From Microbulbifer sp. YPW1 (GTDB taxonomy: Bacteria > Pseudomonadota > Gammaproteobacteria > Pseudomonadales > Cellvibrionaceae), in contig NZ_CP055157.1 in the NCBI RefSeq assembly GCF_013367775.1, forward strand, positions 2,025,001 to 2,089,000: a DNA stretch of 64,000 bases, written 5' to 3'. The notes under the pieces are model-generated. The model was not told the DNA's origin. It searched no databases and was given only the letters and a program-made list of their open reading frames with translations. Numbering within the stretch: position 1 is the stretch's first letter; each line of letters begins with the position of its first letter. The position numbers were made by a program, and so were the translations under genes. Below are positions 24,100 through 59,749 of the stretch, piece after piece.

Positions 24100-24210
24100 A
24101 GCGCTGCTGCTGGGGGCAGTTTGTGAGACACGCCGTTAACCCATCCCGGGGGCTTGTCTGTCGGGTCCCTCCGACGGACAGTCTCACAAACTGCCCCCAG
24201 CAGCAGCGCT
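24100..24210 (+). repeat. Three-way-junction repeat, copy A
   Basis: Inverted arms 24100-24128 and 24182-24210 match at all 29 positions. Between them stand the constant strand beginning CACGCCGTTAACCC and an inner hairpin TGTCTGTCGG / CCGACGGACA with loop GTCCCT. It fills most of the yeaH side of the prkA-yeaH gap. Orientation is defined by the constant strand reading CACGCC on the plus strand. Confidence 0.85.
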
Positions 24211-24273
24211 TTCGCATAACGTCCGGCAATCTTTCTCAACCCTTTCAGTGCGAAGTCCAGAGGTTGAGCTGTA

Positions 24274-24385
24274 GGCCCTGGTACCGGTAGTGCTCTTCGA
24301 GACTGTCGAAAAGAGGGACCTTTTCGACAAGCCCCCATGGATGGGTTTACGGCGTGTCTCGAAGCGCACTACCGGTGACAGGGCC
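24274..24385 (-). repeat. Three-way-junction repeat, copy B (opposite orientation)
   Basis: Arms 24274-24302 and 24357-24385 match at 26 of 29 positions. The constant strand lies on the minus strand (CACGCCGTAAACCCATCC) and the inner hairpin is TGTCGAAAAG / CTTTTCGACA. Arm sequence differs from copy A, only 63 bp away, although the core is nearly the same. A and B face opposite directions. Confidence 0.85.
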
Positions 24386-24422
24386 GCCACCGTAGGACTT
24401 AAAGGCACTAACCCGTCGCCTC

Positions 24423-26345
24423 TTACTGAGACTTCCGCACCCGCAGATACCACTCGGAAAGCAGTCGTACCTGTTTCTCGGTGTAACCGCGTTCGACCAT
24501 GCGGGCGACGAAGTCGGCGTGCTTCTTCTTATCGTCCGCAGAGGCCTTGGTGTTGAATGAGATTACCGGCAGCAGATCCTCGGTGTTGGAGAACATCTTC
24601 TTCTCGATAACCGCGCGCAGCTTCTCGTAAGATCTCCAATCCGGGTTTTTGCCCTGGTTGCCGGCGCGGGCGCGCAGAACGAAGTTGACGATCTCGTTGC
24701 GGAAATCTTTTGGATTGGAAATGCCCGCAGGTTTCTCGGTTTTTTCGAGCTCCTCGTTCAGCGCTGCGCGGTCGAGAATCTCGCCGGTTTCCGGATCGCG
24801 GTATTCCTGATCCTGAATCCAGAAATCGGCATAGGTCACATAGCGGTCGAACAGGTTCTGTCCATACTCTGCGTAGGACTCTAGATAGGCAGTCTGGATT
24901 TCCTTGCCGATAAAGTCGACGTAGCGCGGCGCCAGGTATTCCTTGATGAAGCCCAGATAGTTTTCGTGTAATTCTGGTGGGAACTGCTCCTGCTCTATCT
25001 GTTGCTCCAGTACATACAGCAGGTGTACCGGGTTGGCGGCCACTTCGGTGGCATCGAAATTGAATACCTTGGACAGAATCTTGAACGCGAAGCGTGTTGA
25101 GAGGCCATTCATGCCCTCGTCTACACCGGCGTTGTCGCGGTATTCCTGGATGGTTTTTGCTTTAGGGTCTGTGTCTTTCAGGTTTTCCCCGTCGTACACC
25201 CGCATTTTCGAAAACACACTGGAATTGTCTGGATTTTTGATGCGTGAAAGCACCGAGAACTGGGCCAGCATGCGCAGGGTGTCCGGTGCACAGGGGGCTT
25301 TCGACAGCGAGCTGTGTTCCAGCAGCTTGTCGTAAATCTTGATTTCTTCCTTAACCCGCAGGCAGTAGGGCACCTTGACGATATAGATGCGGTCGAGGAA
25401 TGCCTCGTTGTTGCGGTTGTTGCGGAAAGACTGCCATTCGGACTCGTTGGAGTGCGCCAGGATCACACCGTTGAATGGAATTGCCCCCAGTCCTTCGGTG
25501 CTGTTGTAGTTGCCTTCCTGGGTTGCCGTCAGCAGTGGGTGCAGCACCTTGATCGGCGCCTTGAACATTTCCACAAATTCCATCAGGCCCTGGTTGGAGC
25601 GACACAGGCTGCCGGAGAAGCTGTAGGCATCCGGATCATTTTGCGGGAAGTCTTCCAGCTTGCGGATATCCACCTTGCCCACGAGCGAAGAAATATCCTG
25701 GTTGTTTTCATCGCCGGGCTCGGTTTTGGCGATGGCCACCTGATCGAGAATCGATGGGCGGATCTTCACAACCTTGAATTTGCTGATGTCGCCCTTGTAC
25801 TCGTGCAGGCGCTTCACTGCCCAGGGAGACATGATGGTATTTACATAGCGGCGCGGAATACCGTAATCCTCTTCCAGAATCTGGCCGTCTTCGGAGGGGG
25901 AAAACAGGGCTAGTGGAGATTCGAATACAGGGGAGCCCTTGATGGCGTAAATGGGGATCTGCTCCATCATGGCCTTTAGGCGCTCCGCCAGCGAGGACTT
26001 GCCGCCGCCTACCGGGCCGAGCAGGTATAGAATCTGCTTCTTCTCTTCGAGGCCCTGGGCCGCGTGCCGGAAAAAGGACACAATTTGTTCAATGGCATCT
26101 TCCATGCCGTAGAACTCGGCAAATGCCTTGTAGCGCTTGATGACTTTGTTGGAAAAAATACGCGAGAGTCGGGGGTCGCGGGAAGTGTCGACCAGCTCGG
26201 CTTCACCGATCGCCATCAGCATGCGCTCTGCGGGAGAGGCATAGGCGCTGCGGTCGTTTTTGCACAGCTCCAGGTACTCCTGGATAGTGAGTTCTTCCTC
26301 CTGAATCGACTCGTAGCGTTCCAGGTAGTGATTGAATATCGACAT
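24423..26345 (-). CDS. prkA: PrkA-type serine protein kinase (YeaG)
   Basis: A 640-residue AAA+-like kinase. It has Walker A LGPVGGGKSSLAERLK (about 109-125), a Walker B-like region, the conserved EFVEMFKAPIKVLHPLLTATQEGNY, and the C-terminal PrkA kinase domain with LRVKEEIKIYDKLL and the DEGMNGLSTRFAFKIL segment. The family phosphorylates serine residues and, with YeaH and SpoVR, forms a stress or stationary-phase module. The ATG at 26345 follows a GGGAG ribosome site. It is first in the operon; a promoter should lie in 26346-26741 but no clear sigma-70 match was found there. Confidence 0.94.
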   Translation of the reverse strand: MSIFNHYLERYESIQEEELTIQEYLELCKNDRSAYASPAERMLMAIGEAELVDTSRDPRLSRIFSNKVIKRYKAFAEFYGMEDAIEQIVSFFRHAAQGLEEKKQILYLLGPVGGGKSSLAERLKAMMEQIPIYAIKGSPVFESPLALFSPSEDGQILEEDYGIPRRYVNTIMSPWAVKRLHEYKGDISKFKVVKIRPSILDQVAIAKTEPGDENNQDISSLVGKVDIRKLEDFPQNDPDAYSFSGSLCRSNQGLMEFVEMFKAPIKVLHPLLTATQEGNYNSTEGLGAIPFNGVILAHSNESEWQSFRNNRNNEAFLDRIYIVKVPYCLRVKEEIKIYDKLLEHSSLSKAPCAPDTLRMLAQFSVLSRIKNPDNSSVFSKMRVYDGENLKDTDPKAKTIQEYRDNAGVDEGMNGLSTRFAFKILSKVFNFDATEVAANPVHLLYVLEQQIEQEQFPPELHENYLGFIKEYLAPRYVDFIGKEIQTAYLESYAEYGQNLFDRYVTYADFWIQDQEYRDPETGEILDRAALNEELEKTEKPAGISNPKDFRNEIVNFVLRARAGNQGKNPDWRSYEKLRAVIEKKMFSNTEDLLPVISFNTKASADDKKKHADFVARMVERGYTEKQVRLLSEWYLRVRKSQ

Positions 26346-26741
26346 GGTGTACGACTCCCTGTAGCGTACCGCGTCAGTAACCGGCCTCCTGCCGTGGAGT
26401 ACCTACTGCGCTGCAGCGTAGTGATGACCGCGAATACATCCCGCAACGAATGCTGAAGAGCGCTGACGCGCGAGAACGCTATCTTTATTACCTATTGGAT
26501 TGCGCGACGATGCTGCTGTCGCAACAGGGGGCCTGCTATCAGGTCCCGCACTTTCAGGATAGTCAGCGCTCCGGGTTCAAAGGGGTAAACCGCACAAGAT
26601 GGGTTGAGAGGCGCGCCATTTTTGCGAAGCTGGTTCGTGGCGTAAAATATGCTGTAAAGTGATGTGTCCTGCTGGGACGGGTGACGATCGCTGCGCCTGG
26701 CATGCATTTCGCGACAGAAAAACGGACAACAAAGGAAGATC
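26346..26741. other. Divergent intergenic region prkA / galE
   Basis: This 396-bp region must hold the opposing promoters of prkA and galE. For galE the site AAAGGAAG lies before the ATG, and AT-rich TAAAAT (26643-26648) and TAAAGT (26655-26660) could be -10 boxes, with weak -35 boxes. No strong prkA promoter is visible, which fits a stress sigma factor, though that is inference. A 70-codon frame at 26450-26662 has no ribosome site and was not accepted as a gene. Confidence 0.4.
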
Positions 26742-27767
26742 ATGAAAGTTCTGGTAACTGGTGGCGCCGGCTATATTGGCAGCCATACCTGTGTCGAGTT
26801 GCTGCAGGCGGGCTACGAGCCCGTGGTGGTAGACAACCTGTGCAACAGCAGCGAAGAGGCTTTGCAGCGGGTAGAAGCCATTACCGGAAAATCCGTGCCC
26901 TTCCACCGTGTGGATATCAAGGATGCCGACGCCCTGCGGGAAGTTTTTCGCCAATATGCGGTGTCTGCAGTAATCCACTTTGCTGGACTCAAGGCCGTTG
27001 GCGAATCTGTTTCCCTTCCTTTGCGGTATTACCAGAACAACGTTGCCGGCACCCTGACCCTTTGTGAGGTGATGGCAGAGTTCGGCGTTCACCAGCTGAT
27101 CTTCAGCTCATCCGCCACCGTTTACGGCGATCCTGAATCGGTTCCCATCCGCGAAGGCTTCCCTACCGGCGCCACAAATCCCTACGGTGCCAGCAAATTG
27201 ATGGTTGAGGATATCCTGCAGGACCTGTGCAAGGCGCCTGGCAATCAGTGGAAGGTCAGCCTGTTACGCTACTTCAACCCCATTGGTGCGCACGAGAGCG
27301 GCACCATTGGTGAAGACCCTGCGGGCATTCCCAATAACCTTTTGCCCTATGTGGCACAGGTTGCGGTAGGGCGTTTGCCCCGCCTGCAGGTATTCGGTGA
27401 CGATTACCCGACGCCCGATGGTACCGGCGTGCGCGACTATATCCACGTGGTGGATCTGGCCCGCGGCCACCTGGCAGCGCTCAACAAGCTGCAAAAAGCG
27501 GAAACCGAAACCGGCTGTTATACATACAACCTGGGCACCGGTCGCGGCAGCTCCGTACTGGAGATCGTGCGCGCGTTTGCCGATGCAGCCGGCCGGGAAA
27601 TTCCCTACAAGATCGTTCCCCGTCGTCCCGGTGATATCGCCGAGTGCTACGCGGATCCAAGTTACGCAGAGCAAGAGCTGGGCTGGAAAGCCGAGCTGGA
27701 CCTGCAGCGGATGGTGGAAGATACCTGGCGCTGGCAATCACAGAACCCGAATGGCTATGTGAAGTGA
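26742..27767 (+). CDS. galE: UDP-glucose 4-epimerase (GalE)
   Basis: Interconverts UDP-glucose and UDP-galactose, feeding LPS and exopolysaccharide. The 341-residue extended SDR has the NAD-binding [15 protein letters not shown] at the N-terminus, the catalytic Ser in [10 protein letters not shown], and Y-x3-K in [14 protein letters not shown]. Substrate-binding segments [20 protein letters not shown] and [14 protein letters not shown] agree with GalE over full length. It is monocistronic, ending at a strong terminator. Confidence 0.96.
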
Positions 27768-27794
27768 TCGCCGCGTATTGAACGCAGTTAGAGA

Positions 27795-27820
27795 AACGGG
27801 CCACAAGGCCCGTTTTTTTT
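27795..27820 (+). terminator. galE terminator
   Basis: ACGGGCC pairs with GGCCCGT around loop ACAA and runs into eight T residues, 28 bp after the galE stop. Confidence 0.93.
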
Positions 27821-27952
27821 GTGCGTGAAATTCACCCGCAGCTGACAGGGGGCGTGTAATGTCGTGTAACCGCAGAACTATTGATCTCCGAGAGAATTCA
27901 CTTAATCATCGGGCGCGAAACGATAACTCACAATAAAACAAGGATATTGAGT

Positions 27953-28747
27953 ATGGAAATAGCTACTGAAGAATCAACGGGGGGAGAGGTGGAGCAGGCC
28001 ACTGGTGCGACGAACATCCAGCCGAACCCCTGGCGCGCGACCGGCTGGTTGGTTGTGTTTGCCCTGTTACACATGCTCGGGGTGTTTTTTTACATAGCCG
28101 GCTACGGTGGTTACCTCGGTGCACAACTCGGCGCCCAGGGCGAGGTCGTGGATCCGGCCGCTGTGCAGATGCAGATCGCCGAGCATGTTACCCAGCCGGG
28201 CGCCATGGCGGGAATGTATCTGGCCCAGTTTGTGCTGATACTGCCGGTGCTGCTGCTGGTATCCCGTTTTAAAGGCCAGACTGCTGCCCAGACACTGGGC
28301 ATTCAGTCATTCTCAATGAAGCAGGTGATGCCATGGCTGGGCGTGCTGGCGATATTTCTGGCCGTGCAGACTGCCGCGGCTCGGTTATTTAATATCGAGC
28401 AAGGCGAGTTCATGGAGATGCTGGCGGGCAGCAAGCACCTGCTACTGGCGCTGGTGCTCGTATTCGCTGCGCCACTATTGGAAGAACTGGTATTCCGCGG
28501 CTATCTGTTCCGCGCTTGGCGCCATACCCGGCTCGGCTTCAGCGGTACCCTGCTGCTGACTTCTGTGTTGTTCACCCTGCTGCACTGGGGGCAGTACAGC
28601 TTGGTTCAGCTGAGCTTTGTATTCACTCTCGCATTGATTTTGGGTTTTGCGCGGGAAAAGAGTGGTTCGGTATTGTTGCCGATGTTGCTGCACTTGGGCA
28701 ACAACCTTGCTGCAGCGGTTTTGGTTCTGTATCTGGGAATCTTGTAA
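27953..28747 (+). CDS. CPBP-family intramembrane glutamic protease, copy 1
   Basis: A 264-residue multi-pass membrane protein. The CPBP/Rce1-type motifs are present: E177-E178-x3-R182 in LLEELVFRGYLFRAW, a first His in LFTLLHWGQ, and a second in LPMLLHLGNN. Members process prenylated or other membrane peptides, or act in bacteriocin immunity; a specific substrate cannot be read. The ATG at 27953 is favoured over one at 27881 because AAGGA lies 9-13 nt upstream. A related copy follows 97 bp downstream. Confidence 0.88.
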   Translation: MEIATEESTGGEVEQATGATNIQPNPWRATGWLVVFALLHMLGVFFYIAGYGGYLGAQLGAQGEVVDPAAVQMQIAEHVTQPGAMAGMYLAQFVLILPVLLLVSRFKGQTAAQTLGIQSFSMKQVMPWLGVLAIFLAVQTAAARLFNIEQGEFMEMLAGSKHLLLALVLVFAAPLLEELVFRGYLFRAWRHTRLGFSGTLLLTSVLFTLLHWGQYSLVQLSFVFTLALILGFAREKSGSVLLPMLLHLGNNLAAAVLVLYLGIL

Positions 28748-28843
28748 CAGCAAGTCATAAAGCGCTTAGCGCAGGTGGCGTAGTACCACCTGCGTTGAAA
28801 CTGATTTTTGGATTCCTGTAATCGCTAGAATGTAAGCCGTTCA

Positions 28844-29629
28844 ATGAAAGAAATTGAAATTCTCCAAGGTTCCTCGGAGGGCTCCACTCCGCCGTCAACT
28901 GTGGATGATCCTATAAGAAACAATGTCCGCGCGGATGAAAGTAGTCCCTGGTTTTCCATTAGCTGGTTGTTTGCATTTCTAATCCTGCATTCTTTAGGCG
29001 TCGGGCTTTACATCGTGGTATTGCGTGTTCAGGGCGTCGTGGATGCACCTCATCAAATTGAGGAGTACTTGATGAGGCCGGAGTCCCTGCCCGGTCTTGT
29101 TTTTTATGGCTGGATATTTGTGATTCCTGCACTGATCTTGGCGGCGCGTTCCAGCCAGCGGTCTTGGCGGCAGGGGTTGGCACTTGTTCGATTCAGTCCA
29201 AGGCAGCTACCGTTCTGGTTGCTCATACTAATGGTTTATCTGCTGTTCGAGACTCTTGCAGTGAAGGTGTTGCAGATCAGTGTTGGGGAATTCATGGAGC
29301 AGATGGTGGGGCAGAAAGGTCCACTGTTGATTCTTAGCATTGTGGTTTTCGCTCCGGTAGCGGAAGAGTTGCTATTCCGAGGATACCTTTTTAATGCGTG
29401 GCGTCATAGTCGTATTGGTTTGTCAGGAACGCTTTTATTAAGTTCGTTTCTGTTTGCGCTGGTGCACTGGGGGCAGTATGGCGTGGTGCCACTATTTTTC
29501 ATATTCGGCGCCGGCCTGTTAATGGGTGTTGCCCGGGAAACAAGTGGCTCTGTGTATCTGCCAATGATTTTGCATGGCTTGGCAAACCTGGTGAGTGTAA
29601 TTATGGTGAATTATCTGGGGCTGGTTTAA
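28844..29629 (+). CDS. CPBP-family intramembrane glutamic protease, copy 2
   Basis: A 261-residue paralogue of the upstream gene with the same layout: a hydrophilic N-terminus, several hydrophobic helices, E174-E175-x3-R179 in AEELLFRGYLFNAWRHSRIG, LFALVHWGQYG and LPMILHGLANL. The block FRGYLFNAWRHSRIGLSGTLLL is nearly the same as in copy 1, so the pair arose by tandem duplication. Codon use is clearly more AT-rich than in copy 1. Its ribosome site is weak. Confidence 0.86.
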   Translation: MKEIEILQGSSEGSTPPSTVDDPIRNNVRADESSPWFSISWLFAFLILHSLGVGLYIVVLRVQGVVDAPHQIEEYLMRPESLPGLVFYGWIFVIPALILAARSSQRSWRQGLALVRFSPRQLPFWLLILMVYLLFETLAVKVLQISVGEFMEQMVGQKGPLLILSIVVFAPVAEELLFRGYLFNAWRHSRIGLSGTLLLSSFLFALVHWGQYGVVPLFFIFGAGLLMGVARETSGSVYLPMILHGLANLVSVIMVNYLGLV

Positions 29630-29672
29630 GGGTTGTTAGTCGGCCGTATTATGGCCCTGGTGCCGATATGTC

Positions 29673-30497
29673 TTAAATTGTGCAGTCCGCGCAGAAAAAA
29701 GCTTCATCCTCCAGCCGCATGGCGGTGAGATATCCACCCCACACACAGCCCGTGTCCAGCGCATATACATTCTTTGTGTTGGCCTCGCCTTCCAGCGCTG
29801 CCCAGTGCCCGAAAATAACCCGGTCGTTTTTGGTTTTGCGGTTCTTGTAGCTGAACCACGGCTTGTAGTCGTGGTGTGCGGCCAGTGGTCCCTGTTTGGT
29901 GACCAGATCCAGGGTGCCGTCTTCCTTGCAGAAGCGCATGCGGGTGAAGTAGTTGGTAATTGAGCGCAGGCGCTCCACTCCGATAAGGTGATCGCTCCAC
30001 AGGTGCGGTTCGTTGCCGTACATGCCGAAGAAATAGGCCTCTGCCATGGCCGGGTCCTGCAGGGTTCTGTGGACCTCTCCCGCCAGTTCCAGAGCCTTGC
30101 TCATGCTCCACATGGGTGGGATGCCCGCGTGCACCATGGAAAAGTATTTATCGTTTACTTTCTTGTGCACCATCAGCGGCTGTTTCTGGAGCCAGCCGAG
30201 CAATTTATCGGCGTCTTTGGCTCGCAGGACTTCGGCTAGATCGTATTCCTTATCGGTCAGGCGTTTGGCGCCGTGGGCGATGGCGAGCAGGTGGAGGTCG
30301 TGGTTGCCGAGTACTGCGGTGACCTGGCTGCGGTGCTCGTAAAGGAAGCGCAGGGTGCCGAGACTGTCCGGACCGCGGTGCACCATGTCTCCGGCCAGCC
30401 ACAGCTTGTCCTTGTCGGCGTTGAAGCGGACTTTCTTCAGTAGTCTTTGAAGCGGTTCCAGGCAACCCTGGATGTCGCCAATTGCGTAGGTGGCCAA
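29673..30497 (-). CDS. apaH: Symmetrical diadenosine tetraphosphatase (ApaH)
   Basis: Hydrolyses Ap4A to two ADP and removes Np4 RNA caps. The 274-residue metallophosphoesterase has YAIGDIQGCLEPLQRLL, WLAGDMVHRGPDSLGTLRFL and VTAVLGNHDLHLLAIAHG, the three phosphoesterase motifs, plus VHAGIPPMWS. It is the last gene of the lptD-surA-pdxA-rsmA-apaH operon. The apaG gene usually found just before it is absent; only 13 bp separate rsmA and apaH. Confidence 0.96.
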   Translation of the reverse strand: MATYAIGDIQGCLEPLQRLLKKVRFNADKDKLWLAGDMVHRGPDSLGTLRFLYEHRSQVTAVLGNHDLHLLAIAHGAKRLTDKEYDLAEVLRAKDADKLLGWLQKQPLMVHKKVNDKYFSMVHAGIPPMWSMSKALELAGEVHRTLQDPAMAEAYFFGMYGNEPHLWSDHLIGVERLRSITNYFTRMRFCKEDGTLDLVTKQGPLAAHHDYKPWFSYKNRKTKNDRVIFGHWAALEGEANTKNVYALDTGCVWGGYLTAMRLEDEAFFCADCTI

Positions 30498-30510
30498 AAG
30501 CTTTCCCCGG

Positions 30511-31332
30511 TTATTCTGTCGCAGACTCTGGCGGTGTCATCTGGCTGCAGTAGTTTGCCAGTTCCACGTACTCTTTCACGCTCAGTGTTTCCGGACGGCG
30601 GCTGGTGTCCACCGGTAGCTGCTCCGGATCGAGGTTCGGGAACAGGGGCTTTAATGCATTGCGCAGGGTTTTTCGGCGCTGCTGGAAGGCGACGCTGACG
30701 ATACGCTCCAACAGCTGCTCATCTTGTGCCGGGTGCGGCAGTGTCTGGTGGGGTACCAGGCGCACAATGGCCGAGTCCACTTTGGGTGCGGGGCGGAAGG
30801 ACTGAGGTGGCACCGGGAACAGGCCCTGCACCCGACAGTAGTACTGCGCCATCACACTCAGGCGGCCAAAGGATTTTACGCCGGGCACCGCGCTCAGGCG
30901 GTCGACCACTTCCTTCTGCAGCATGAAATGCATGTCCTGAATCTTGCCGCGAAAACTCAGCAGGTGGAACAGCAGTGGCGTCGAGATGTTGTAGGGCAGG
31001 TTGCCCACAATGCGCAGCTGATCACCGTCTCCCTCGGCGAGACTGCCAAAATCAAATTTCAGTGCGTCTTTCTCGATGATGGTGAAATCCGGATAGTCGC
31101 GGAACTTGAACTCCAGCATCGGGATCAGGTCCCGGTCCAGTTCGACCGCGGTCAGCGAGGGGCACTTGTCCAGCAGCAGTGCGGTGATCGCGCCCTGGCC
31201 GGGGCCAATCTCCACAAGCTTGTCGGTATCCTTGGGGCCGATGGCGCGCACGATACGTTCGATGATGTTCTCGTCTACAAGAAAATTCTGGCCGAAACGC
31301 TTGCGCGCTTTGTGTTGGAAAAAATTGTCCAT
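30511..31332 (-). CDS. rsmA: 16S rRNA (A1518/A1519-N6)-dimethyltransferase RsmA (KsgA)
   Basis: Dimethylates two adjacent adenosines near the 3' end of 16S rRNA late in 30S assembly. The 273-residue protein starts with HKARKRFGQNFLVDENII, has the SAM site LVEIGPGQGAITALLL, VELDRDLI, and the catalytic NLPYNISTPLLFHLL. The C-terminal FQQRRKTLRNAL is typical of KsgA. It is 43 bp from pdxA in the same operon. Confidence 0.96.
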   Translation of the reverse strand: MDNFFQHKARKRFGQNFLVDENIIERIVRAIGPKDTDKLVEIGPGQGAITALLLDKCPSLTAVELDRDLIPMLEFKFRDYPDFTIIEKDALKFDFGSLAEGDGDQLRIVGNLPYNISTPLLFHLLSFRGKIQDMHFMLQKEVVDRLSAVPGVKSFGRLSVMAQYYCRVQGLFPVPPQSFRPAPKVDSAIVRLVPHQTLPHPAQDEQLLERIVSVAFQQRRKTLRNALKPLFPNLDPEQLPVDTSRRPETLSVKEYVELANYCSQMTPPESATE

Positions 31333-31375
31333 GAAACTTTTCGTATGGGTAATAGGTTGCAGCGCGCCGCAAAGA

Positions 31376-32377
31376 TCACATGGCGCGCAGTCGTACCAGC
31401 TCGACGGCCTGGCTCAGGGCGGCGTTGAGGCTGCCGGTATCGGCAATTCCCGTACCGGCAATATTGAGTGCGGTGCCGTGATCCACGGAGGTGCGGATAA
31501 ACGGCAGTCCCAGGGTGATATTGATGGCGCGCCCGAATCCCTTGAATTTTAACACCGGCAGGCCCTGATCGTGGTACATCGCGAGCACCGCATCACAGCG
31601 CGCCAGTTGTGGCGGGGTAAACAGGGTGTCGGCGGGCAGGGGGCCGATCAGCTCGAGACCCAGGGCGCGCAGGGCGTCCAGTGCCGGCTCGATGACCTCT
31701 ATTTCCTCTCGCCCGAGATGGCCGCCTTCCCCCGCGTGGGGGTTGAGCCCACAGACGCCGATACGGGGGCGCTCGATCCGGAACTGCTGCTGCAGGCTGC
31801 GGTGCAGAATGGTGAGGACCTGCTGCAGCGACTCCCCGTTGATTGCCTGGCTGACATCCTTCAGCGGGATATGCGTGGTGGCCAGGGCTACCCGCAAGTC
31901 ATCTGCGGCCAGCATCATCACTACTTTTTCCACACCCGCCTGTTCCGCGAAGAATTCGGTATGGCCGCTGAACGGCACCCCGGAGTCATTGATCACGCCC
32001 TTGTGTACCGGTCCCGTCACCACGGCATCGAAGGTGCGCTTTATACAGCCTTCTGCAGCGCGACGCAGGGTTTCCAGTACGTAGGGGCCGTTGGCGGCGT
32101 CGAGTCGCCCGGGACTGGCGGGCGCGGCGAGGGATACCGGCAGGATATGCAGGGCGCCCTCGGGGGTGACGGTAGCGGGTTGGGTTGGCTCGAATGGTAT
32201 TAGCTGCAGGGATTTGCCCCGGCGGGCAGCTTCCTGGTGCAACAGCTCCGGATCGGCAATGGCGACGACCTGTGCGCCTGCGATGTCTGGGGTGCGCCCG
32301 GAACTGGCGAGTTTGACTGCCAGCTCCGGGCCGATTCCGGCGGGCTCGCCGGGAGTAAATGCGATACGCGGGATCAT
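31376..32377 (-). CDS. pdxA: 4-hydroxythreonine-4-phosphate dehydrogenase (PdxA)
   Basis: NAD-dependent step of pyridoxal phosphate synthesis in the DXP-dependent route. It shows IAFTPGEPAGIGPELAVKLA at the N-terminus, GPVHKGVINDSGVPFSGHTEFFA with a metal-binding His, GLNPHAGEGGHLGREE, and AMYHDQGLPVLKFKGFG. The ATG at 32377, 4 nt after the surA stop, matches the family start; an in-frame start at 32401 would overlap surA and add eight residues. Confidence 0.95.
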   Translation of the reverse strand: MIPRIAFTPGEPAGIGPELAVKLASSGRTPDIAGAQVVAIADPELLHQEAARRGKSLQLIPFEPTQPATVTPEGALHILPVSLAAPASPGRLDAANGPYVLETLRRAAEGCIKRTFDAVVTGPVHKGVINDSGVPFSGHTEFFAEQAGVEKVVMMLAADDLRVALATTHIPLKDVSQAINGESLQQVLTILHRSLQQQFRIERPRIGVCGLNPHAGEGGHLGREEIEVIEPALDALRALGLELIGPLPADTLFTPPQLARCDAVLAMYHDQGLPVLKFKGFGRAINITLGLPFIRTSVDHGTALNIAGTGIADTGSLNAALSQAVELVRLRAM

Positions 32378-32381
32378 CCGG

Positions 32382-37824: not shown

Positions 37825-37832
37825 GCGCGAAG

Positions 37833-38528: not shown

Positions 38529-38564
38529 CCAAAACGCTAACGAAGCGATAAAGCACAAACTGAA

Positions 38565-38688
38565 GGTCGGGTGCCGGGTGGAGCTTTTCGGGATCGTCGC
38601 AAACAGGATGTTTGCGCCGAAGCGCCCAGTGATGGGTTGAAGGGGGGCGCCTAGCCCGGTCCCGAAAAGCTCCACCCGGTGTCCGGCC
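38565..38688 (-). repeat. Three-way-junction repeat, copy C (divergent subtype)
   Basis: A perfect 20-bp inverted arm (38574-38593 with 38660-38679) extends outward with wobble-type differences to 38565/38688. The inner hairpin is CGCAAACA / TGTTTGCG around TCC. The constant strand is on the minus strand and has diverged, but keeps ACCCATCACTGGG, which forms the same small CCCA/TGGG stem as the other copies. It lies in the 218-bp murU-rpe gap. Confidence 0.72.
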
Positions 38689-38746
38689 GCCACCGGGCCC
38701 AAACAAAGCTCCGGGGCAAAAAACCTCCAAGCACTGAGACGAGAAA

Positions 38747-42667: not shown

Positions 42668-42704
42668 GGTTTTAGTTGGTGTGCTCCGTGGATGGTCTGG
42701 TGGC

Positions 42705-42816
42705 GGTGCTGCTACCGGGATCCGTTTGCGAGACACGCCGTGAACCCGTCCATGGGGGCTCTTCTAAAACATCCCTGTTTTAGAAGGTCTCGCAAACGGA
42801 TCCCGGTATCAGCCCC
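42705..42816 (+). repeat. Three-way-junction repeat, copy D
   Basis: Arms 42705-42733 and 42788-42816 match at 27 of 29 positions. The constant strand CACGCCGTGAACCCGTCC follows the left arm. The inner hairpin CTTCTAAAACA / TGTTTTAGAAG has a sequence unrelated to that of copies B and E but pairs perfectly around TCCC. The element lies within the 213-bp trpG-trpD gap. Confidence 0.85.
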
Positions 42817-44816: not shown

Positions 44817-47008
<2,192 letters not shown>

Positions 47009-47235
47009 CAGTGTGCCGGTGTGGATCTTGCACCGGTAGCGGCAGGTCAATGGGATGAGTGGTTGTACCACCGGGATGAACCACAGGTGGGTGAATTCCC
47101 AGTCATCCATGAAATGATATATTGGCGCGTTAGACATCTTAGCTGGTGCCGATATCTGCAGAGGGGGGAGCGCTTGCCCGCAAACCCGGTGCAAACCATT
47201 GGCGCCGATACCAGACACACTCATCGGAGAATGAC

Positions 47236-49419: not shown

Positions 49420-49462
49420 CCAGCGCAACGCCGCGCAGGGAAGCGCGGCTGAGCGTCCTGTA

Positions 49463-51631: not shown

Positions 51632-51720
51632 GGAACTACCTCAAGTTGACCCGCCAATTCTAGTGTCGAATTCGGCGGTTCCCTCCATGTCAGCCTCCCG
51701 TTGGAGCGGGGCGGTTCCCG

Positions 51721-53298: not shown

Positions 53299-53314
53299 AA
53301 ATTCAGGGCCAAAT

Positions 53315-53354
53315 AAAAAAGCCGGTCCGGGACAGTGTATCCCAGACCGGCTTT
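53315..53354 (-). terminator. Terminator between TonB receptor and sulfotransferase
   Basis: On the minus strand AAAGCCGGTC pairs with GACCGGCTTT, with an inner GGGA/TCCC and single bulges, then T6. It follows the TonB receptor stop by about 17 bp and would reduce expression of the sulfotransferase from the same promoter. Confidence 0.88.
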
Positions 53355-53370
53355 GTGTGAGTGCGCCGAA

Positions 53371-55845
53371 TCAGAAGCTGTAGGTGAATCTGGCACCGAT
53401 CGTGCGCGGGGTACCCACGTACTGGCCGTAAGAGCGCTGGGTAAAGCCGTTGCCCCACCCGATGCCCGGACCGTTGTTTTCATCCTCCAGGTTGCGGCGG
53501 CTGGTGCGGGTACCGGTGATGTAGTACTTGTCCCACAGGTTGTCGGCAAAGGCCTGTACCGTCCAGTTGTTCATGGCCAGCGTGGCGGACAGGTGATGTA
53601 CGGCGTATCCCGGGATGGCTTCGCCACCGCGGTCACCTGCGGTGATGCTGCCATCCTCTTCGACGATATAAAGCGGATCTTCCGGTCCGCCCACCATGTT
53701 GTAGACATCACTGGCGAATACCAGGCCGTAATTCAGGTCGAGATCGTAGCCGCCCATCACCGTAGTCGTGTAATTCAGATTAAGCGATCCCTGGTGTTGC
53801 GCATGGCCGGGCAGGCGCGCTCCCGCATAGACGTCGAAGGGGCCGACCAGCCCGGGTGCGTCTTCGGTCAGTTCCGCATCGGTATAGGCGTAGGTGAGGG
53901 CCAGATCCAGATTGTCGGTAATCAACCAGCTACCCTGAAGTTCGAAGCCCTGGCTCACCGCGGCACTGCCGTTACCGGTGATCGGCAGTGAGCCGTTAGC
54001 GGTAGTGGTCGCAACCTGCAGGTCGGTCCAGTCGATATAGTAGAGCGCGGTGCTCACCGACAAGCGATCGCCAACCAGGCCCTTGTAGCCGATTTCGTAG
54101 TTATCGATCTGATCCGGGTTGATCAACACTTCGTCGGGGAGTGCGCATAGCTGCTGGTTGTCACTGGCAATTTGCTCGGCGGTACATTGAGGAACCGAGT
54201 TCACGCCGCCGTTGCGGTAACCCTGTGAGTAGGTGAAATAGACCATGCCGTTATCAACTGCATCCCACGCCACGTTGAACTTGAGCAGGTCACCGTCATC
54301 TTCACCCTGGTTGCGACCGAGATCCACGTTAATGGCGTCCTGCGGTTCGCCAAGGAATACCGTTTCAAATAATGGCAGCCCGAAACCACCGGTAATGTCG
54401 GTTTCAAACTTGTAGCGCCGGTAGCCGCCGGTTACCGCCAGGGTATCGGTGATGTTGTAGGTCAGCTCGCCGTAGAAGGCCGACTCCTTCTCGTCGATAT
54501 CGGTGAGCTGGATATATTCCAGGCTGTCTGGACGCAATTGCACACCGTCCCAGTTGTCCACAACAAACTGGTCAAAGTAGGGGGTGAATTCCTCACTGAT
54601 GGCGTCGGAAACGTACTTGTTCTGGAAGTATCCCGCTACCCACTTGAACGGGCCTTCGTGCTGGGAAGACATGCGCAGTTCAAAGGTATCGGATTGATCC
54701 TTTACTTCCTCCCGGGTATAGGCGGAGAAGGAGGGGAAAGAATCGTAGCCGTAATCCAGGTCCAGCAGCAGGTCGGTCTGGTCGCGCTGGCCCAGCTCTT
54801 CGTACTCGGACTGGCCATACACCATGGTGGCCTGGGCAAAGCCCAGATCGCCGATCAACTCCAGGCTGGTGAGCTTGTTGGTGTAGTGGTTGGGTTCCTC
54901 GTAGCGCATACCCGACTCGTAAGGCCCGGTACCGAAGGAGAGCTGGTGGGCCAACTGACGGCCTTCGGCCTTGGTGTCCTGGTAGTAGTGCCACAGGTTG
55001 GCTTCCAGCCAGTCGTTGGCGAGCCAGCGCACATTGATTCGCGCAGAGGTGGTGTCTTCGCCATTGGCATCTTTGGCGCGGCGCAGGTTTGCGGCGACTT
55101 CCTCGGGATTATTGAAATCTGGTTCCGGGTCGGAGATGCCGGATTCGCGCACCACGTAGTTGTAGTCGATGAAGCCCGGATCCTGGACACTGTCCGCATT
55201 CACCCGAATGGCGAGGGTATCGGTGATGGCGAAGTTCAGGGTGGCGCCGTATTCCTGACCGAGGCCGGAGCTTTCGCTGTTACTGCTGGCGCTACCGCGG
55301 AATTTGGCACTGAACCCGGAGGGATCTGCCTTCGCCGGGATATAGCGGATGGCACCGCCCATGGTGCCCTGGCCGTAAAGGGTACCCTGGGGGCCAATGA
55401 GTACTTCCACGCGCTCGAGGTCGACCGGCTTGAGGTCCACCTGCAGGGGGATATCGCCCAGGTACATGGCAACCGTACTGCTGCTGAAGCCCGGGCCCAG
55501 GCCACCGGTGTTCAGGCCGCGCACCATCATATCCGGTACTTCATCCCGAGGGCCCCGGTCCACCACGGTCAGGCCGGGGGTGTAGTAGGCAATCTTGGAA
55601 ATACTGTCGAGGCGCAGGTCCTCGATTTTTTCACCGCCCACGGCCGAGATGTTAATGGGGATATCCATCACGTTTTCTTCGCGCCGCGAACCGGTGACGA
55701 CCACCTCTTCAAAAACCGGTTTGTTTTCGCTCTCGGCCTTGCCGTCCTCGGCCAGGGCGGACTGCCCCGAGGATATTGCGGCGAGGGAGATGGCGATGGC
55801 GAGATTGGACTGGGTCAGGACTTTGGATCGGCTGCTGTGACGCAT
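53371..55845 (-). CDS. TonB-dependent outer-membrane receptor
   Basis: An 824-residue receptor. The signal peptide (LAIAISLAAISSGQSALA) is followed by a TonB-box-like VFEEVVVTGSR, a plug domain (about 50-165, with VLIGPQGTLYGQGTMGGAIRYIPAKADP), and a 22-strand barrel ending IGARFTYSF. It belongs to the iron-complex/outer-membrane receptor group common in sphingomonads and Cellvibrionales; the ligand is unknown. Co-location with a TPR-sulfotransferase suggests uptake or handling of a sulfated or modified compound, but this is only context. Confidence 0.93.
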   Translation of the reverse strand: MRHSSRSKVLTQSNLAIAISLAAISSGQSALAEDGKAESENKPVFEEVVVTGSRREENVMDIPINISAVGGEKIEDLRLDSISKIAYYTPGLTVVDRGPRDEVPDMMVRGLNTGGLGPGFSSSTVAMYLGDIPLQVDLKPVDLERVEVLIGPQGTLYGQGTMGGAIRYIPAKADPSGFSAKFRGSASSNSESSGLGQEYGATLNFAITDTLAIRVNADSVQDPGFIDYNYVVRESGISDPEPDFNNPEEVAANLRRAKDANGEDTTSARINVRWLANDWLEANLWHYYQDTKAEGRQLAHQLSFGTGPYESGMRYEEPNHYTNKLTSLELIGDLGFAQATMVYGQSEYEELGQRDQTDLLLDLDYGYDSFPSFSAYTREEVKDQSDTFELRMSSQHEGPFKWVAGYFQNKYVSDAISEEFTPYFDQFVVDNWDGVQLRPDSLEYIQLTDIDEKESAFYGELTYNITDTLAVTGGYRRYKFETDITGGFGLPLFETVFLGEPQDAINVDLGRNQGEDDGDLLKFNVAWDAVDNGMVYFTYSQGYRNGGVNSVPQCTAEQIASDNQQLCALPDEVLINPDQIDNYEIGYKGLVGDRLSVSTALYYIDWTDLQVATTTANGSLPITGNGSAAVSQGFELQGSWLITDNLDLALTYAYTDAELTEDAPGLVGPFDVYAGARLPGHAQHQGSLNLNYTTTVMGGYDLDLNYGLVFASDVYNMVGGPEDPLYIVEEDGSITAGDRGGEAIPGYAVHHLSATLAMNNWTVQAFADNLWDKYYITGTRTSRRNLEDENNGPGIGWGNGFTQRSYGQYVGTPRTIGARFTYSF

Positions 55846-56055
55846 GATTGCTCCCTAAGACTGTTTTTTGTTTATTAGTGATATCTGCAATCACGGTACC
55901 AGTGTCGAAGAGAATAAATCGCTAATTAAGGGGTTCAGGCAGGGGATAATTTTGCATGTGCGCCTTCGGTTGGTGCATGCGTCTAAAAGGTGGTGGTTTT
56001 GTGCGTCTTTATGGTGCTGCAGGGGGGCTATTGCGCAGTAGCCGGGAGGGGAAAT

Positions 56056-56084
56056 AAAAAAGGCGATCCAGATGGATCGCCTTT
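56056..56084 (-). terminator. Terminator of the Crp/Vfr gene
   Basis: On the minus strand AGGCGATCC pairs with GGATCGCCT around loop ATCT and ends in a T6 run. It lies 26 bp beyond the stop. Confidence 0.92.
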
Positions 56085-56109
56085 CGGGGAGCGGAATAAA
56101 CGGTGCCGC

Positions 56110-56745
56110 CTAGCGGGTGCCGTAAACAACCATGGTTTTGCCTTTGACGGATACCAGTCCCTGCTCTTCCAGGGTCTTCAGTACCCGGCCAACCATCTCG
56201 CGGGAGCAGCCAACAATACGGCCGATTTCCTGGCGGGTGATCTTGATCTGCATGCCTTCCGGGTGGGTCATGGCATCCGGCTCGTTGCACAGGTCGAGCA
56301 GGGTGCGGGCAACGCGGCCGGTGACGTCCAGGAACGCCAGGTCACCGACTTTACGGGTGGTGTTGCGCAAGCGCACGGCCATCTGGGTGGCCAGGTTGAA
56401 CAGGAATTCCGGATGCTGACGGGTCAGTTCCTGGAATTTGGTGTAGGAGATCTCCGCTACCTCACACTCGGTCTTGGTGCGCACCCAGGCACTGCGGGTG
56501 TCCTGGTCAAACAGGCCCATCTCACCGAAGAAGTCGCCGTCGTTAAGATAGGCGACGATCATTTCACGCCCTTCGTCATCCTCGATTAGCACGGTTACCG
56601 AGCCGCGCATGATGAAGTACAGGGACTCGCAGCGGTCGCCGGCATAGATGATGGTGCTCTTTGCCGGGTAGCGGCGGCGGTGGCAATGGGCGAGGAAGTC
56701 TTCGATGTTGCCAGTAGAAAGGGTTTCTTCGGTAGCGACCGTCAC
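56110..56745 (-). CDS. vfr: cAMP-responsive transcription factor, Crp/Vfr type
   Basis: A 211-residue global regulator. The GTG at 56745 is chosen because AAAAGGAG lies just upstream; earlier in-frame starts lack a ribosome site. The cAMP-binding pocket is conserved: [28 protein letters not shown] (the RSAWVR phosphate contact) and [10 protein letters not shown] at the T127-S128 region. The DNA-recognition helix [29 protein letters not shown] and C-terminal VVYGTR are almost those of E. coli CRP. The divergent OsmC gene matches vfr-PA0653 in Pseudomonas and crp-yhfA in E. coli. Confidence 0.95.
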
Positions 56746-57055
56746 GGATCTACTCCTTTTTCTAGAATTTTTGTGCCTGATCCCGGGTAAGAGGACGATT
56801 ATCCCGCTAAAACACCGGTGCCGACAGGGGCAGAGCGCAGCAATGCTTCGCAATGTGATCTGGGCCACTGTTTGCGAAGGACTCGGATAGGGTGTTGTTT
56901 ATAGCGGTTGTGGACAGCGCTGACAACCGCTGTTAGTGAAGGCTTACTTATTGATGGTTGCGGGCTGGGGCGGATTTGTAAATTTCCCTGCTGCAGATAT
57001 CGCGCTCCCTTGTGATAAGCTCCCGGGCCGCGTCAATTATGAAGGAGAATGTTCC

Positions 57056-57475
57056 ATGGCAGGCGTTATGCAGGGTCAGGTGACCTGGGTCAATGGGGTC
57101 ACGTTTGTGGGCGAATCCGGCAGTGGTAACTCGGTAGTGATGGAGGGAGGCCAGAAGAACAATGGCATCCGTCCGATGGAGATGATCCTGCTGGGTGTGG
57201 GTGGCTGCGCCTCTTACGATGTGGTGGGTATTCTGCAGAAGACCCGTCAGGACGTGGTGAGCTGCCATGTAGAACTCAAGGGTCACCGCCCGGATGCGGT
57301 GCCAGCACCTTTCGAGAAGATCGAGATGGAATTCGTGGTGCGCGGGCGGGACATCAAAGAGAAGCACGTGGCCAAGGCGGTGGAACTGTCGGCTGAGAAG
57401 TACTGTTCGGCTTCTATTATGCTCGGCAAGGCTGGTGTAGAAATCGTGCATACCTACCGGATTGAAGAAGCCTGA
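57056..57475 (+). CDS. OsmC-family (YhfA-like) peroxiredoxin-type protein
   Basis: A 139-residue protein starting MAGVMQGQVTW at an ATG with AAGGAGAAT upstream; an in-frame frame from 56936 is an unlikely extension. It has the OsmC cysteines in LLGVGGCASYDV and AEKYCSASIML, where one Cys attacks hydroperoxides and the other resolves. It is divergent from the Crp/Vfr gene, a partnership kept in E. coli and Pseudomonas. Its exact substrate is unknown. Confidence 0.9.
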   Translation: MAGVMQGQVTWVNGVTFVGESGSGNSVVMEGGQKNNGIRPMEMILLGVGGCASYDVVGILQKTRQDVVSCHVELKGHRPDAVPAPFEKIEMEFVVRGRDIKEKHVAKAVELSAEKYCSASIMLGKAGVEIVHTYRIEEA

Positions 57476-57494
57476 AGGCTTGCGAGCAATTCAT

Positions 57495-57525
57495 AAAAAA
57501 GGGGAGCCAGTGGCTCCCCTTTTTT
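57495..57525. terminator. Bidirectional terminator between osmC and coq7
   Basis: GGGGAGCCA pairs with TGGCTCCCC around a one- to three-base loop, with A6 on the left and T6 on the right. It serves the convergent OsmC and coq7 genes. Confidence 0.92.
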
Positions 57526-57548
57526 ATTCTCTTTACAGAGGCGGCCGC

Positions 57549-58196
57549 TTACAGCCGGTAGCTCACCGAAGTCATCGCTTTCGATACCAGCGTCATCAGC
57601 CCCTTAACCGGGCGCGGGAAGCGCGCACCGCCGGCATCCAGTGCCGCGTGTTGATGTTTCGCTTCATCTACCAGCATCTGCTCCACCACCGCACGGCTCT
57701 TGTCGTCCTGAGCGGGCAGTTTCTGCAAGTGGCTCTCCAGGTGCTTGCACACCTGTTCTTCCGTGGCCGCGACAAAGCCCAGGCTGACCTTGTCGGAGAT
57801 CTTGCCCGCAGTGGCACCGATGCCGAACGAGAGTCCGTACCACAGCGGGTTCAGCAGGCTGGGACGGCTGTCCAGTTCCTGCAGACGCTGTTCGCACCAG
57901 GCCAGATGATCAATCTCCTCATCCGCCGCATGCTCCATCTCTGCACGTACCTGCGGCAGCTTGGCGGTCAGGGCCTGCCCCTGATACAGCGCCTGGGCGC
58001 AGACTTCACCACTGTGATTCACGCGCATCAGCCCCGCCGCGTGGCGGCGCTCTGCGTCCGACAGGTTCGCCTCGTCTGCCGACTTGGCGGGAGACGGGCG
58101 CTCGTGACAGGGTGAGCCCGGGCTCAGGGTACGCAGGGCGCGGTCCGCCTGCAGCAGCAGGCGGTCCAGACCGGATAACTGGCGTTGACTGCTCAT
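57549..58196 (-). CDS. coq7: Demethoxyubiquinone hydroxylase (Coq7/CAT5)
   Basis: Performs the C6 hydroxylation in ubiquinone synthesis. The 215-residue di-iron protein has the ligands in [46 protein letters not shown] and [17 protein letters not shown], matching the ferritin-like two-fold E-x2-H pattern. This is the Coq7 type used by pseudomonads rather than the UbiF flavoprotein of E. coli. In Pseudomonas it neighbours vfr and speD; speD is absent here. Confidence 0.95.
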
Positions 58197-58234
58197 CAGT
58201 GTGCTCCGTATTTAGCCAGACAGGAAAAGGCCAA

Positions 58235-59530
58235 TCAGGCCTCTTCAGACTGCTCCCGCTCCACCGCGCGGTAACCGATATCCTTGCGGAAGAAGACACC
58301 GTCCCAGTGGATCTTGCGGGCGCATTCGTAGGCATTTTCCTTGGCTTCCGCCACCGTGTCACCCAGTGCGGTGGCACAGAGTACGCGGCCGCCGCTGGTG
58401 ACGACGCGCTCGCCGTCCAGCGCGGTGCCGGCGTGGAAGATCTTGGCGTTTTCACTGTCGGCCTTGTCGAGGCCGGAGATGGGATCGCCCTTGCGGTAGC
58501 TGCCCGGGTAGCCGTGTGCGGCGAGCACCACACCCAGCGACGGGCGCGAGTCCCACTCCACTTCGACCTGGTCGAGGCGTTTCTCGACCGCGGCCATGCA
58601 CAGCTCCACCAGGTCGGACTTGAGGCGCATCATGATGGGCTGGGTTTCGGGGTCGCCGAAACGGCAGTTGTACTCGATGACCTTGGGCGCACCTTCTTCA
58701 TTGATCATCAGGCCGGCGTAGAGGAAGCCGGTGTAGGGCATGCCCTCGGAGGCGAGGCCTTTGACGGTGGGCTCGATGACTTCTTTCATCACCCGCTCGT
58801 ACACGTCCGGGGTCACCACCGGTGCCGGGGAATAGGCACCCATGCCGCCGGTGTTGGGGCCGGTGTCGCCATCGCCGACGCGCTTGTGGTCCTGGCTGGT
58901 AGCCATGGGCAGGATGTTTTCGCCGTCCACCATGACGATGAAGCTGGCTTCTTCGCCGGTGAGGAATTCTTCGATGACCACGCGGCAGCCGGCTTCGCCG
59001 AAGGCGTTGCCGCTGAGCATGTCGCGCACGGCCAGTTCTGCCTGCTCTACGGTTTCGGCGACGATGACGCCTTTACCAGCGGCGAGGCCATCGGCCTTGA
59101 CCACGATGGGGGCGCCTTTTTCGCGCAGGTAGGCGATCGCCGGCTCAACTTCGGTGAAGTTCCGGTAGTCGGCGGTGGGGATGGCGTGACGCTCGAGGAA
59201 GTCTTTGGTGAAGGCTTTGGAGCCTTCGAGCTGGGCGGCAGCTTTTTCCGGGCCGAAGATGTTGTGGCCGCGGCTGTTGAAGTAGTCGACGATGCCGTCA
59301 ACCAGCGGGGCTTCCGGGCCGACGATGGTGAGGTCGATACCTTTTTCTTCGACGAGGTCGGAGAGGGCGGAGAAGTTGTCGACGCCGATGTTGACGTTCT
59401 GGAGCTTCGGCTCGCGGGCGGTGCCGGCGTTACCGGGGGCGACGAAGACGGTGTCTACGGCGGGGTTTTGGGCGGCCTTCCAGGCCAGTGCGTGTTCACG
59501 GCCACCAGAGCCGATTACCAGGATATTCAT
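58235..59530 (-). CDS. purD: Phosphoribosylamine-glycine ligase (GAR synthetase)
   Basis: Second step of purine synthesis. The 431-residue ATP-grasp enzyme begins MNILVIGSGGREHALAWKAAQ and shows VGPEAPLVDGIVDYF, VKADGLAAGKGVIVAET, QDHKRVGDGDTGPNTGGMGAYSPAP and EYNCRFGDPETQPIMMRL. It is downstream of purH on the same strand, 262 bp away with a repeat element between. Confidence 0.97.
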   Translation of the reverse strand: MNILVIGSGGREHALAWKAAQNPAVDTVFVAPGNAGTAREPKLQNVNIGVDNFSALSDLVEEKGIDLTIVGPEAPLVDGIVDYFNSRGHNIFGPEKAAAQLEGSKAFTKDFLERHAIPTADYRNFTEVEPAIAYLREKGAPIVVKADGLAAGKGVIVAETVEQAELAVRDMLSGNAFGEAGCRVVIEEFLTGEEASFIVMVDGENILPMATSQDHKRVGDGDTGPNTGGMGAYSPAPVVTPDVYERVMKEVIEPTVKGLASEGMPYTGFLYAGLMINEEGAPKVIEYNCRFGDPETQPIMMRLKSDLVELCMAAVEKRLDQVEVEWDSRPSLGVVLAAHGYPGSYRKGDPISGLDKADSENAKIFHAGTALDGERVVTSGGRVLCATALGDTVAEAKENAYECARKIHWDGVFFRKDIGYRAVEREQSEEA

Positions 59531-59637
59531 TCTTGAGTTTCCCCGTGCCTGTTATTTAGGTGGGCTAGTTTAGCATTCTTAACTTGTCGGGCAGGTGACG
59601 GAGTGATGGCAGGGTAGATATTTGCCAGCTCCGTGGC

Positions 59638-59749
59638 GGGCCAGATACCGGGGTCCATTCGCGAGACACGCCGTAAACCCATCCCTGGGGGCTTGTCGAA
59701 AAGGTCCCTCTTTTCGACAGTCTCGCGAATGGGCCCCGGTATCCGGCCC
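59638..59749 (+). repeat. Three-way-junction repeat, copy E
   Basis: Arms 59638-59666 and 59721-59749 match at 27 of 29 positions, and both differences can pair as G-T. The constant strand CACGCCGTAAACCCATCC and the inner hairpin TGTCGAAAAG / CTTTTCGACA are the same as in copy B, while the arms differ from it. The element lies in the purH-purD gap, antiparallel to transcription there. Confidence 0.87.

Follow-up and report, generated by a model that had tools for sequence, protein, structure and literature searches.

A dispersed three-way-junction repeat of Microbulbifer and other Gammaproteobacteria, with strand-specific arms and paired GGA loops resembling CsrA/RsmA sites

The DNA analysed here is a 64,000-nucleotide stretch of the genome of Microbulbifer sp. 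YPW1 (contig NZ_CP055157.1, positions 2,025,001 to 2,089,000), referred to below as the window. It carries five copies, A to E, of an intergenic repeat with the layout of a three-way junction. A preliminary description, made from the sequence alone, had placed them between co-directional genes and in both orientations; all five were found at those positions and align as one family, the gaps concerned (DUF444/yeaH–prkA, NTP_transferase protein–rpe, trpG–trpD and purH–purD) all have co-directional neighbours, and A, D and E lie on the plus strand and B and C on the minus strand. In the shared design a long arm (P1) encloses a small stem (P2) and an inner stem (P3). The strand with the near-constant sequence is called here the constant strand; on it the apical loop of both small hairpins, P2 and P3, reads TCC, which is GGA on the opposite strand, called here the GGA strand. 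The features are as follows.

24102..24206, plus strand: element A, left member of an inverted pair in the yeaH–prkA gap; constant strand on plus, GGA strand on minus; cmsearch 97.2 bits; fold z-score -12.2.
24278..24383, minus strand: element B, right member of the same pair; constant strand on minus, GGA strand on plus; cmsearch 100.8 bits.
38575..38680, minus strand: element C, a variant in which a CTAGGCGCCCCCC-type insertion precedes the small stem; cmsearch 33.5 bits.
42707..42812, plus strand: element D, in the trpG–trpD gap, with orthologues in relatives; constant strand on plus, GGA strand on minus; cmsearch 109 bits.
42700..42706, plus strand: 5' foot of D, GTGGCGG, which recurs across the own-genome set.
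42733..42760, plus strand: constant strand of D including the small hairpin P2, loop TCC at 42749-42751 (GGA on minus), from the sequence and the 66-copy alignment described below.
42761..42786, plus strand: inner hairpin P3 of D, loop TCC at 42772-42774 (GGA on minus, ACAGGGAUGU), from the sequence.
59640..59745, plus strand: element E, in the purH–purD gap; constant strand on plus, GGA strand on minus; cmsearch 105.7 bits.

When each of the five elements was folded as RNA on either strand, z-scores ranged from -6.7 to -12.2 and none of 200 shuffles was as good. In D the GGA of the P3 loop lies 20 nt from that of the P2 loop, and the GGA strand of E is sense to both purH and purD. The conserved unit is wider than the palindrome and includes a 5' foot, GTGGCGG, and a 3' foot, CCTTCGCA (CCTTCGC). 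Among the 114 own-genome matches described below, at least five of the seven bases of the 5' foot were present in 106 and at least five of the eight of the 3' CCTTCGCA foot in 105, counts that are anchored on the motif itself and therefore inflate the conservation. The common design held for the three-way-junction family, with C as an outlier: the exact constant strand is missing, an additional GGGCTAGGCGCCCCCC-type insertion stands in front of the small stem, and the GGA of its P2 loop has been lost. A conserved CTAGGCGCC(C/T)CCC insertion immediately ahead of the small stem marks a subfamily with C and nine other own-genome copies (at 131251, 680220, 769340, 1076395, 1127292, 1284141, 2109241, 3135650 and 4458070).

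The repeat is abundant and widely distributed. Its core, CACGCCGTRAACCC, occurs 36 times in the 4.58-Mb own genome and the reversed control pattern not once, so chance does not account for it. Counting the own genome each time, a longer core, CACGCCGTRAACCCATCC, was present in 49 of 120 genomes of the bacterial family and in 4 of 369 sampled from the whole class. In a collection of 84,980 species at least 118 stretches contain exact core copies, in many Gammaproteobacteria, Microbulbifer included; among the matches listed (80 named) are Microbulbifer, Marinobacter, Marinimicrobium, Cellvibrio, Rheinheimera, Arsukibacterium, Alkalimonas, Oceanisphaera, Zobellella, Alcanivorax, Alteromonas, Pseudomonas, Halopseudomonas, Stenotrophomonas, Xanthomonas and unnamed Gammaproteobacteria, together with one 3.2-kb contig of a metagenome-assembled genome labelled Klebsiella. 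The Microbulbifer loci have feet and arms in common with the own genome. We collected 140 copies, 29 from the own genome and 111 from others, and built a covariance model, R1, from 66 of them with a 54-nt core. The further copies that the preliminary description had expected from such a model were found: the own genome (G000 in our numbering, in which other genomes have G numbers and loci L numbers) has at least 114 matches at E ≤ 1, the weakest at 0.35 and the others below 0.001, a lower bound because 150 of 1297 candidates were scored. Three genomes of the same genus without exact CACGCCGTRAACCCATCC have matches as well (6 in G065, 15 in G116 and 12 in G092).

The preliminary description knew of no named family with this layout, and this agrees with our searches. 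At the gathering threshold of Rfam release 15 the window gave one tRNA only and eight element-bearing loci gave nothing, so membership of an Rfam family was rejected; a low-threshold search around A and B returned 12 matches, far below the gathering score and mostly to microRNA hairpins. No description of the dispersed repeat family was found in the open-licence papers searched. Along the own chromosome 85 of the 114 matches are no more than 1.15 Mb from the putative origin, a zone that makes up half of the genome. On G000:C1 matches are denser near this origin, placed at about 1.55 Mb, and become sparse near the putative terminus; both points were derived from the GC skew of 20 samples.

The pairing of the stems was examined in a gap-free alignment of the 66 copies. 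In it 88.1% of the cells pair, compared with 61.1% after shuffling, and pairing falls to 37.5-47.4% when the partner is slid by one to three columns. The covariation score was 0.649 (0.165 shuffled), and two-sided changes were seen in 24 of the 26 pairs of P1 and in 9 of the 11 pairs of P3. P2 is invariant in this set because it was used to find the copies. In an alignment of 130 R1 matches (127 distinct) two P2 pairs showed 57 and 59 double changes (CCCA/TGGG, TACA/TGTA and others) and the covariation score was 0.789 (0.199 shuffled), although this alignment was fitted to R1 and leans towards the structure. All three stems covary. The proposed three-way junction maintained by paired changes is confirmed in the own genome and in others, and also at orthologous sites.

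Double changes at fixed sites were counted in two gaps. In trpG–trpD, with a detector requiring 23 or more identical positions of the 28 in the core, 13 of the 30 loci from the genus (own genome among them) carried the element; variant copies were visible by eye in four more (L266, L268, L270 and L272), and L252 ends at a contig edge. In 55 same-orientation genome pairs there were 33 two-sided arm-pair differences, compared with 5.5 expected under independence. In purH–purD the element was present in 15 of 30 loci, and 78 genome pairs (a further 27, with arms more than 35% different, were left out) gave 395 double changes (340 Watson-Crick in both) against 112.7 expected. The genome pairs are not independent and block replacement contributes to these counts. 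Much of the orthologous change in the inner stem is block replacement and not stepwise compensation; in trpG–trpD this stem is swapped between relatives as a block, CTTCTAAAACA against CTTCCGCGAGG.

Larger rearrangements were seen as well. The trpG–trpD element is inverted in L254 and L265, and in L257 the gap reads as feet without a body, an apparent deletion. The yeaH–prkA gap holds an inverted pair in G000 and G098, a single copy in G106 and G110 and an apparent deletion scar in G119. Near 39.4 kb of the window, G110 and G119 have an inverted pair in a gap where G000, G106 and G098 have none, with no clean boundary. Such inversions and deletions, together with the swaps of P3 and of whole bodies between relatives at the same gaps, would fit neutral palindromes whose complementarity is produced by quasi-palindrome correction or gene conversion without selection. 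We regard this explanation as highly improbable, since it would be expected to give neither the strand-specific mismatch spectrum, nor the conserved loops in varied stems, nor the GGA-GGA spacing, all of which are described below.

If neither strand were preferred, the arms should hold A.C and G.T mismatches in about equal numbers. We counted isolated P1 mismatches, those with two Watson-Crick pairs to either side, and scored a given type at a given position only once within each arm cluster. Read on the constant strand, the 111 copies from other genomes (64 clusters) had 55 A.C, 7 G.T and 52 other mismatches; 111 of the 114 own matches (50 clusters; three were dropped for poor arms) had 59, 2 and 50. 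An A.C on the constant strand is a G.U wobble on the GGA strand, and C.T and C.C (G.A and G.G on the GGA strand) were also far commoner in P1 than the reverse. Because P1 mismatches of the A.C/G.T kind are nearly all G.U on the GGA strand, it is the fold of this strand, opposite the near-constant one, for which the P1 arm appears to be kept. A bidirectional terminator or a cruciform was rejected as the main selected function, as neither would be expected to give a strand-specific mismatch spectrum. The asymmetry alone does not separate RNA from single-stranded DNA. The count is a cheap way to probe for the functional strand of a palindromic repeat.

The loops were conserved in a way that the stems were not. 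Among the 140 copies, 129 have a P3 of 22-30 nt, which gives 88 distinct P3 sequences, and P3 had not been used in finding the copies. TCC (GGA) is in the loop of 84 of these 88 according to a simple stem finder and anywhere in P3 in 85; 48 match CANGGANG and 15 match CAGGANG. In the 66-copy alignment the P3 loop columns carry 1.73-2.0 bits and the stem columns 0.09-1.13, apart from the loop-closing T (1.5 bits) and one invariant A (2.0 bits). The earlier statement that a fold is selected rather than a sequence therefore needs qualification: paired changes are kept, but the loop GGA and part of the small-stem strand are conserved as sequence.

On the GGA strand, CANGGANG was found in 111 of the 114 own matches, with 170 sites (shuffle mean 5.2, maximum 11), and on the constant strand in none of the 114; the count is not independent of the search, because the model includes the loops. 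ACARGGAUGU lies within 43 of the 114, and 109 have at least two TCC-loop hairpins by a loose finder. The distance between the two GGAs is nearly fixed. Without a length filter it was 19-22 nt in 129 of the 140 copies (exactly 20 nt in 96) and 24-69 nt in 5, with no second loop found in 6; when a 5-bp stem was required, the class at 19-22 nt fell to 113, with 7 copies at other distances and 20 unscored. In the own genome it was 19-21 nt in 103 of 114, 15 nt in one, and 10 were unscorable.

Some copies depart from this layout. In L121 (near 4446) and L145 (near 2898) another repeat, GACCGCCATGGATGGCGGAAGTGC...GCAGGAGCA, is inserted in the P3 loop at the same position, and by eye it has GGA-loop hairpins of its own. 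In L050 and L110 (Rheinheimera) and in L120 the stretch after P3 differs, and L050 has an additional TCC-loop hairpin (CAAATCCGCTCCCTGCGGATTTG).

These loops were compared with known binding sites of CsrA and its homologues. The consensus obtained for CsrA by systematic evolution of ligands by exponential enrichment (SELEX) is RUACARGGAUGU with GGA in hairpin loops, RsmE recognizes an ANGGAN hexaloop, and CsrA can bridge a pair of sites separated by 10-63 nt, the optimum being more than 18 (PMC7652899); the high-affinity form has ANGGAX directly on a stem (PMC4005645). The loop GGA of the element stands in an ANGGAN/CANGGANG context, and two such sites lie at a bridgeable distance (19-22 nt in 129 of 140). 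The element is a real, widespread structured repeat with strand-specific arms, and its loops match a CsrA/RsmA site in sequence, loop type and spacing. It resembles CsrB/CsrC and RsmX/Y/Z in having several A(N)GGA-loop hairpins, which in those RNAs bind CsrA/RsmA dimers (PMC7652899, PMC4005645), but these are dedicated small RNA genes, whereas the element is a repeat scattered between genes, with two such loops set on a three-way junction and with predicted binding. CsrR1 and CsrR2 of Alcanivorax dieselolei are likewise CsrA-related RNAs with GGA motifs from a marine gammaproteobacterium; they differ in being two individual small RNAs, one of them from a 5' untranslated region, with more GGA motifs each, and the available parts of that paper describe no dispersed repeat for them (PMC9788540).

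Features of a mobile element were found as well. Copies of the family occur singly or as inverted pairs, with 16 close pairs of the '+-' and 3 of the '-+' arrangement in the own genome. In the distant clade of G065, G092 and G116 most of the 21 copies listed are nearly identical, with sharp ends (CTACTGGG...CCCTTTTTAG), short and imperfect terminal repeats, and TA outside. One site that is occupied in G116 but empty in G065 is consistent with a TA duplication in which one TA copy has mutated to CA; at a second candidate empty site the alignment was not clean. The copies in this clade look like a TA-flanked miniature mobile element. They share near-identical copies, defined ends and TA at the insertion site with miniature inverted-repeat transposable elements of the IS630/Tc1-mariner type, but differ in that no autonomous partner was seen and the ends in the window's own clade are different, where flank conservation of the CTTCGTA type is weak. 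Seven genomes contain 14 exact occurrences of the 13-base right end, confined to three of them and all at R1 matches, and no autonomous partner sharing it was found in the seven. Carriage by phages, plasmids or viral contigs was not adopted as an explanation, since no viral contig had the exact core and blastn of copy D against plasmids and phages gave no match, although both searches could miss copies with other arms.

The comparison with repetitive extragenic palindromic (REP) sequences, bacterial interspersed mosaic elements (BIME) and REPINs, offered loosely in the preliminary description, holds for the layout alone: these too are palindromes scattered between genes that carry a conserved foot (GTGGCGG in the present case) and at times form inverted pairs. 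The element differs in its branched core of 106 bp, its strand-specific mismatches and the absence of a tested Y1 transposase gene nearby. No R1 match lay within 1.5 kb of any of 33 Y1_Tnp loci (3 of 3 in the own genome and 30 of 49 in 25 others, i.e. 33 of the 52 Y1 matches in 26 genomes), so the element copies do not flank Y1 genes there as expected of REPs and their associated transposases (RAYTs). REPs are 20-40 bp long and mostly GTAG- or CGTC-tagged (PMC3733652), not 106-bp three-way junctions with a GTGG foot. A classical RAYT-REP system was rejected on these grounds of size, tag and the 33 of 52 Y1 matches examined, and as a repeat the family is not a REP by the features tested. One Y1 transposase-like protein, a 308-amino-acid frame in L033 (G000:C1:1249159-1249485), reads LPNMVQIIA in place of the usual HUH motif, which is apparently lost.

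The REP-like inverted pairs and feet, and the near-identical copies with defined ends in G065, G092 and G116, could also mean that the GGA strand is selected as folded single-stranded DNA for a strand-specific transposase (REP/RAYT- or IS200-like), the loops being part of the recognition; a G.T pair in DNA would give the same mismatch asymmetry. This we consider rather unlikely. Besides the 33 Y1 loci without an element, there is no replication-strand bias (62 of the 114 own matches are on the leading strand), paired changes are also seen at orthologous sites, which need not be under selection for mobility, and the loop motif resembles a CsrA site. The one resolved empty site fits a TA duplication, and Y1 insertion is unlike TA duplication.

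The best reading, with a probability of roughly 0.58, is in our opinion that of a mobile-derived, dispersed, CsrA/RsmA-binding RNA element. The sequence comparisons demonstrate the family itself, its covariation, the conserved loops and their spacing, and the strand bias of the mismatches; from these we infer that the GGA strand is transcribed and bound by CsrA/RsmA, with regulatory consequences. The RNA module would be read from the strand opposite the near-constant one; P1 would close a three-way junction from which two hairpins, P2 and P3, project, both with an A(N)GGAN-type loop and with the GGAs about 20 nt apart, so that one CsrA/RsmA dimer could clamp both. The copies would have been dispersed as a miniature mobile element, or descend from one, and then have been retained at intergenic sites, where those transcribed may titrate CsrA/RsmA or tether it to the neighbouring mRNA.

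A strand-specific structured RNA might instead serve another ligand, RNase III processing or 3'-end protection. Strand asymmetry and covariation require only an RNA fold, and long duplex arms, as here, would suit RNase III. In raw counts, with no baseline of gap types, few own-genome single copies lie between divergent genes (3, compared with 62 between co-directional and 9 between convergent genes). Two GGA loops with CANGGANG at a near-fixed 19-22 nt are left unexplained by this possibility, and we hold it to be clearly improbable.

Several observations weigh against CsrA/RsmA binding by an RNA of the GGA strand. The first concerns orientation, with genes called by a simple codon model. Among the co-directional single copies of the own genome the GGA strand was sense in 38 and antisense in 24 (one-sided p 0.049); all own matches comprised 82 co-directional, 23 convergent and 7 divergent, with 48 sense and 34 antisense; in other genomes, where 28 copies were left out (at an edge, far from genes, overlapping or paired), there were 50, 22 and 11, with 22 sense and 28 antisense. 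No clear orientation bias emerges. This is the strongest argument against a role in the transcripts of the neighbours, and it leaves own promoters, antisense or read-through transcription, or a role as single-stranded DNA.

The mismatch asymmetry is also confined to P1: the A.C to G.T ratio was 6 : 8 and 6 : 7 in P3 and 8 : 11 in P2, and at the loop-closing position of P3 it was reversed (0 : 17), though these two bases, read on the GGA strand, are the A and X of the hexaloop. Two of the five covariation measures showed no excess in the 66-copy alignment, namely double-change pairs (33, shuffled 32.1) and further pair types (114, shuffled 117.8), and the pair types again did not exceed shuffles in the 130-match alignment. 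Some P3 loops are not ANGGAN (e.g. CGGAC), and one GGA is lost in some copies (the P2 of C; a G106 copy). The 15 of 88 P3 loops without the N are of a type that is weak in RsmZ, where natural 5-nt loops without N bind in the micromolar range, compared with 16 nM for the hexaloop SL2 (PMC4005645). Very stable hairpins may be disadvantageous, and the 11-bp P3 and long P1 are more stable than most SELEX hairpins, which have four pairs or fewer (PMC7652899). Finally, csrA exceeded the cut-off in 44 of 47 genomes, which favours the CsrA reading, but not in G000, G074 and G119, and DNA with the lysC end plus csrA was not found in G000. A real loss of csrA in these three was not accepted; masking is suspected, as csrA of G100 runs into N.

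If the element is a CsrA-binding RNA, what would be new is a dispersed repeat rather than a dedicated small RNA. Tentatively, and with somewhat less than even confidence, one may picture a mobile-derived gammaproteobacterial repeat family in which each copy supplies two CsrA/RsmA sites at once. Roughly 200 sites per genome would then lie between housekeeping genes, held by selection on one RNA strand, and would act alongside CsrB/RsmZ as a distributed sponge or as a layer that tethers CsrA locally. Dispersed palindromic repeats have often been put down to REP-like DNA parasites or to transcription terminators; they would then include a family selected as a one-strand RNA with a known protein ligand, and the persistence of such repeats would become a directly testable question. 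Csr/Rsm capacity would have to be counted differently in Microbulbifer, Marinobacter, Rheinheimera, Xanthomonas and Stenotrophomonas, and confirmation would add an undescribed dispersed part to the CsrA regulatory system.

The csrA genes themselves are numerous in some genomes of the genus. Matches to csrA at E ≤ 1, fragments included, number 23 in G065, 21 in G114, 28 in G116, 8 in G092 and 10 in G003. No elements were found near the csrA clusters at L158, L159, L160 and L167. In L160 csrA lies at 1907-2077, 8029-8199, 16756-16926, 17669-17848 and 18667-18837 and in L179 at 1755-1943; in both it adjoins recurrent open reading frames, and in L160 it is also near Rhs/YD-repeat-like proteins (by eye). 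Two of the 15 G116 elements, G116:C1:2720418-2720523 (L179) and 144596-144701 (L175), lie less than 200 bp from a csrA paralogue or fragment.

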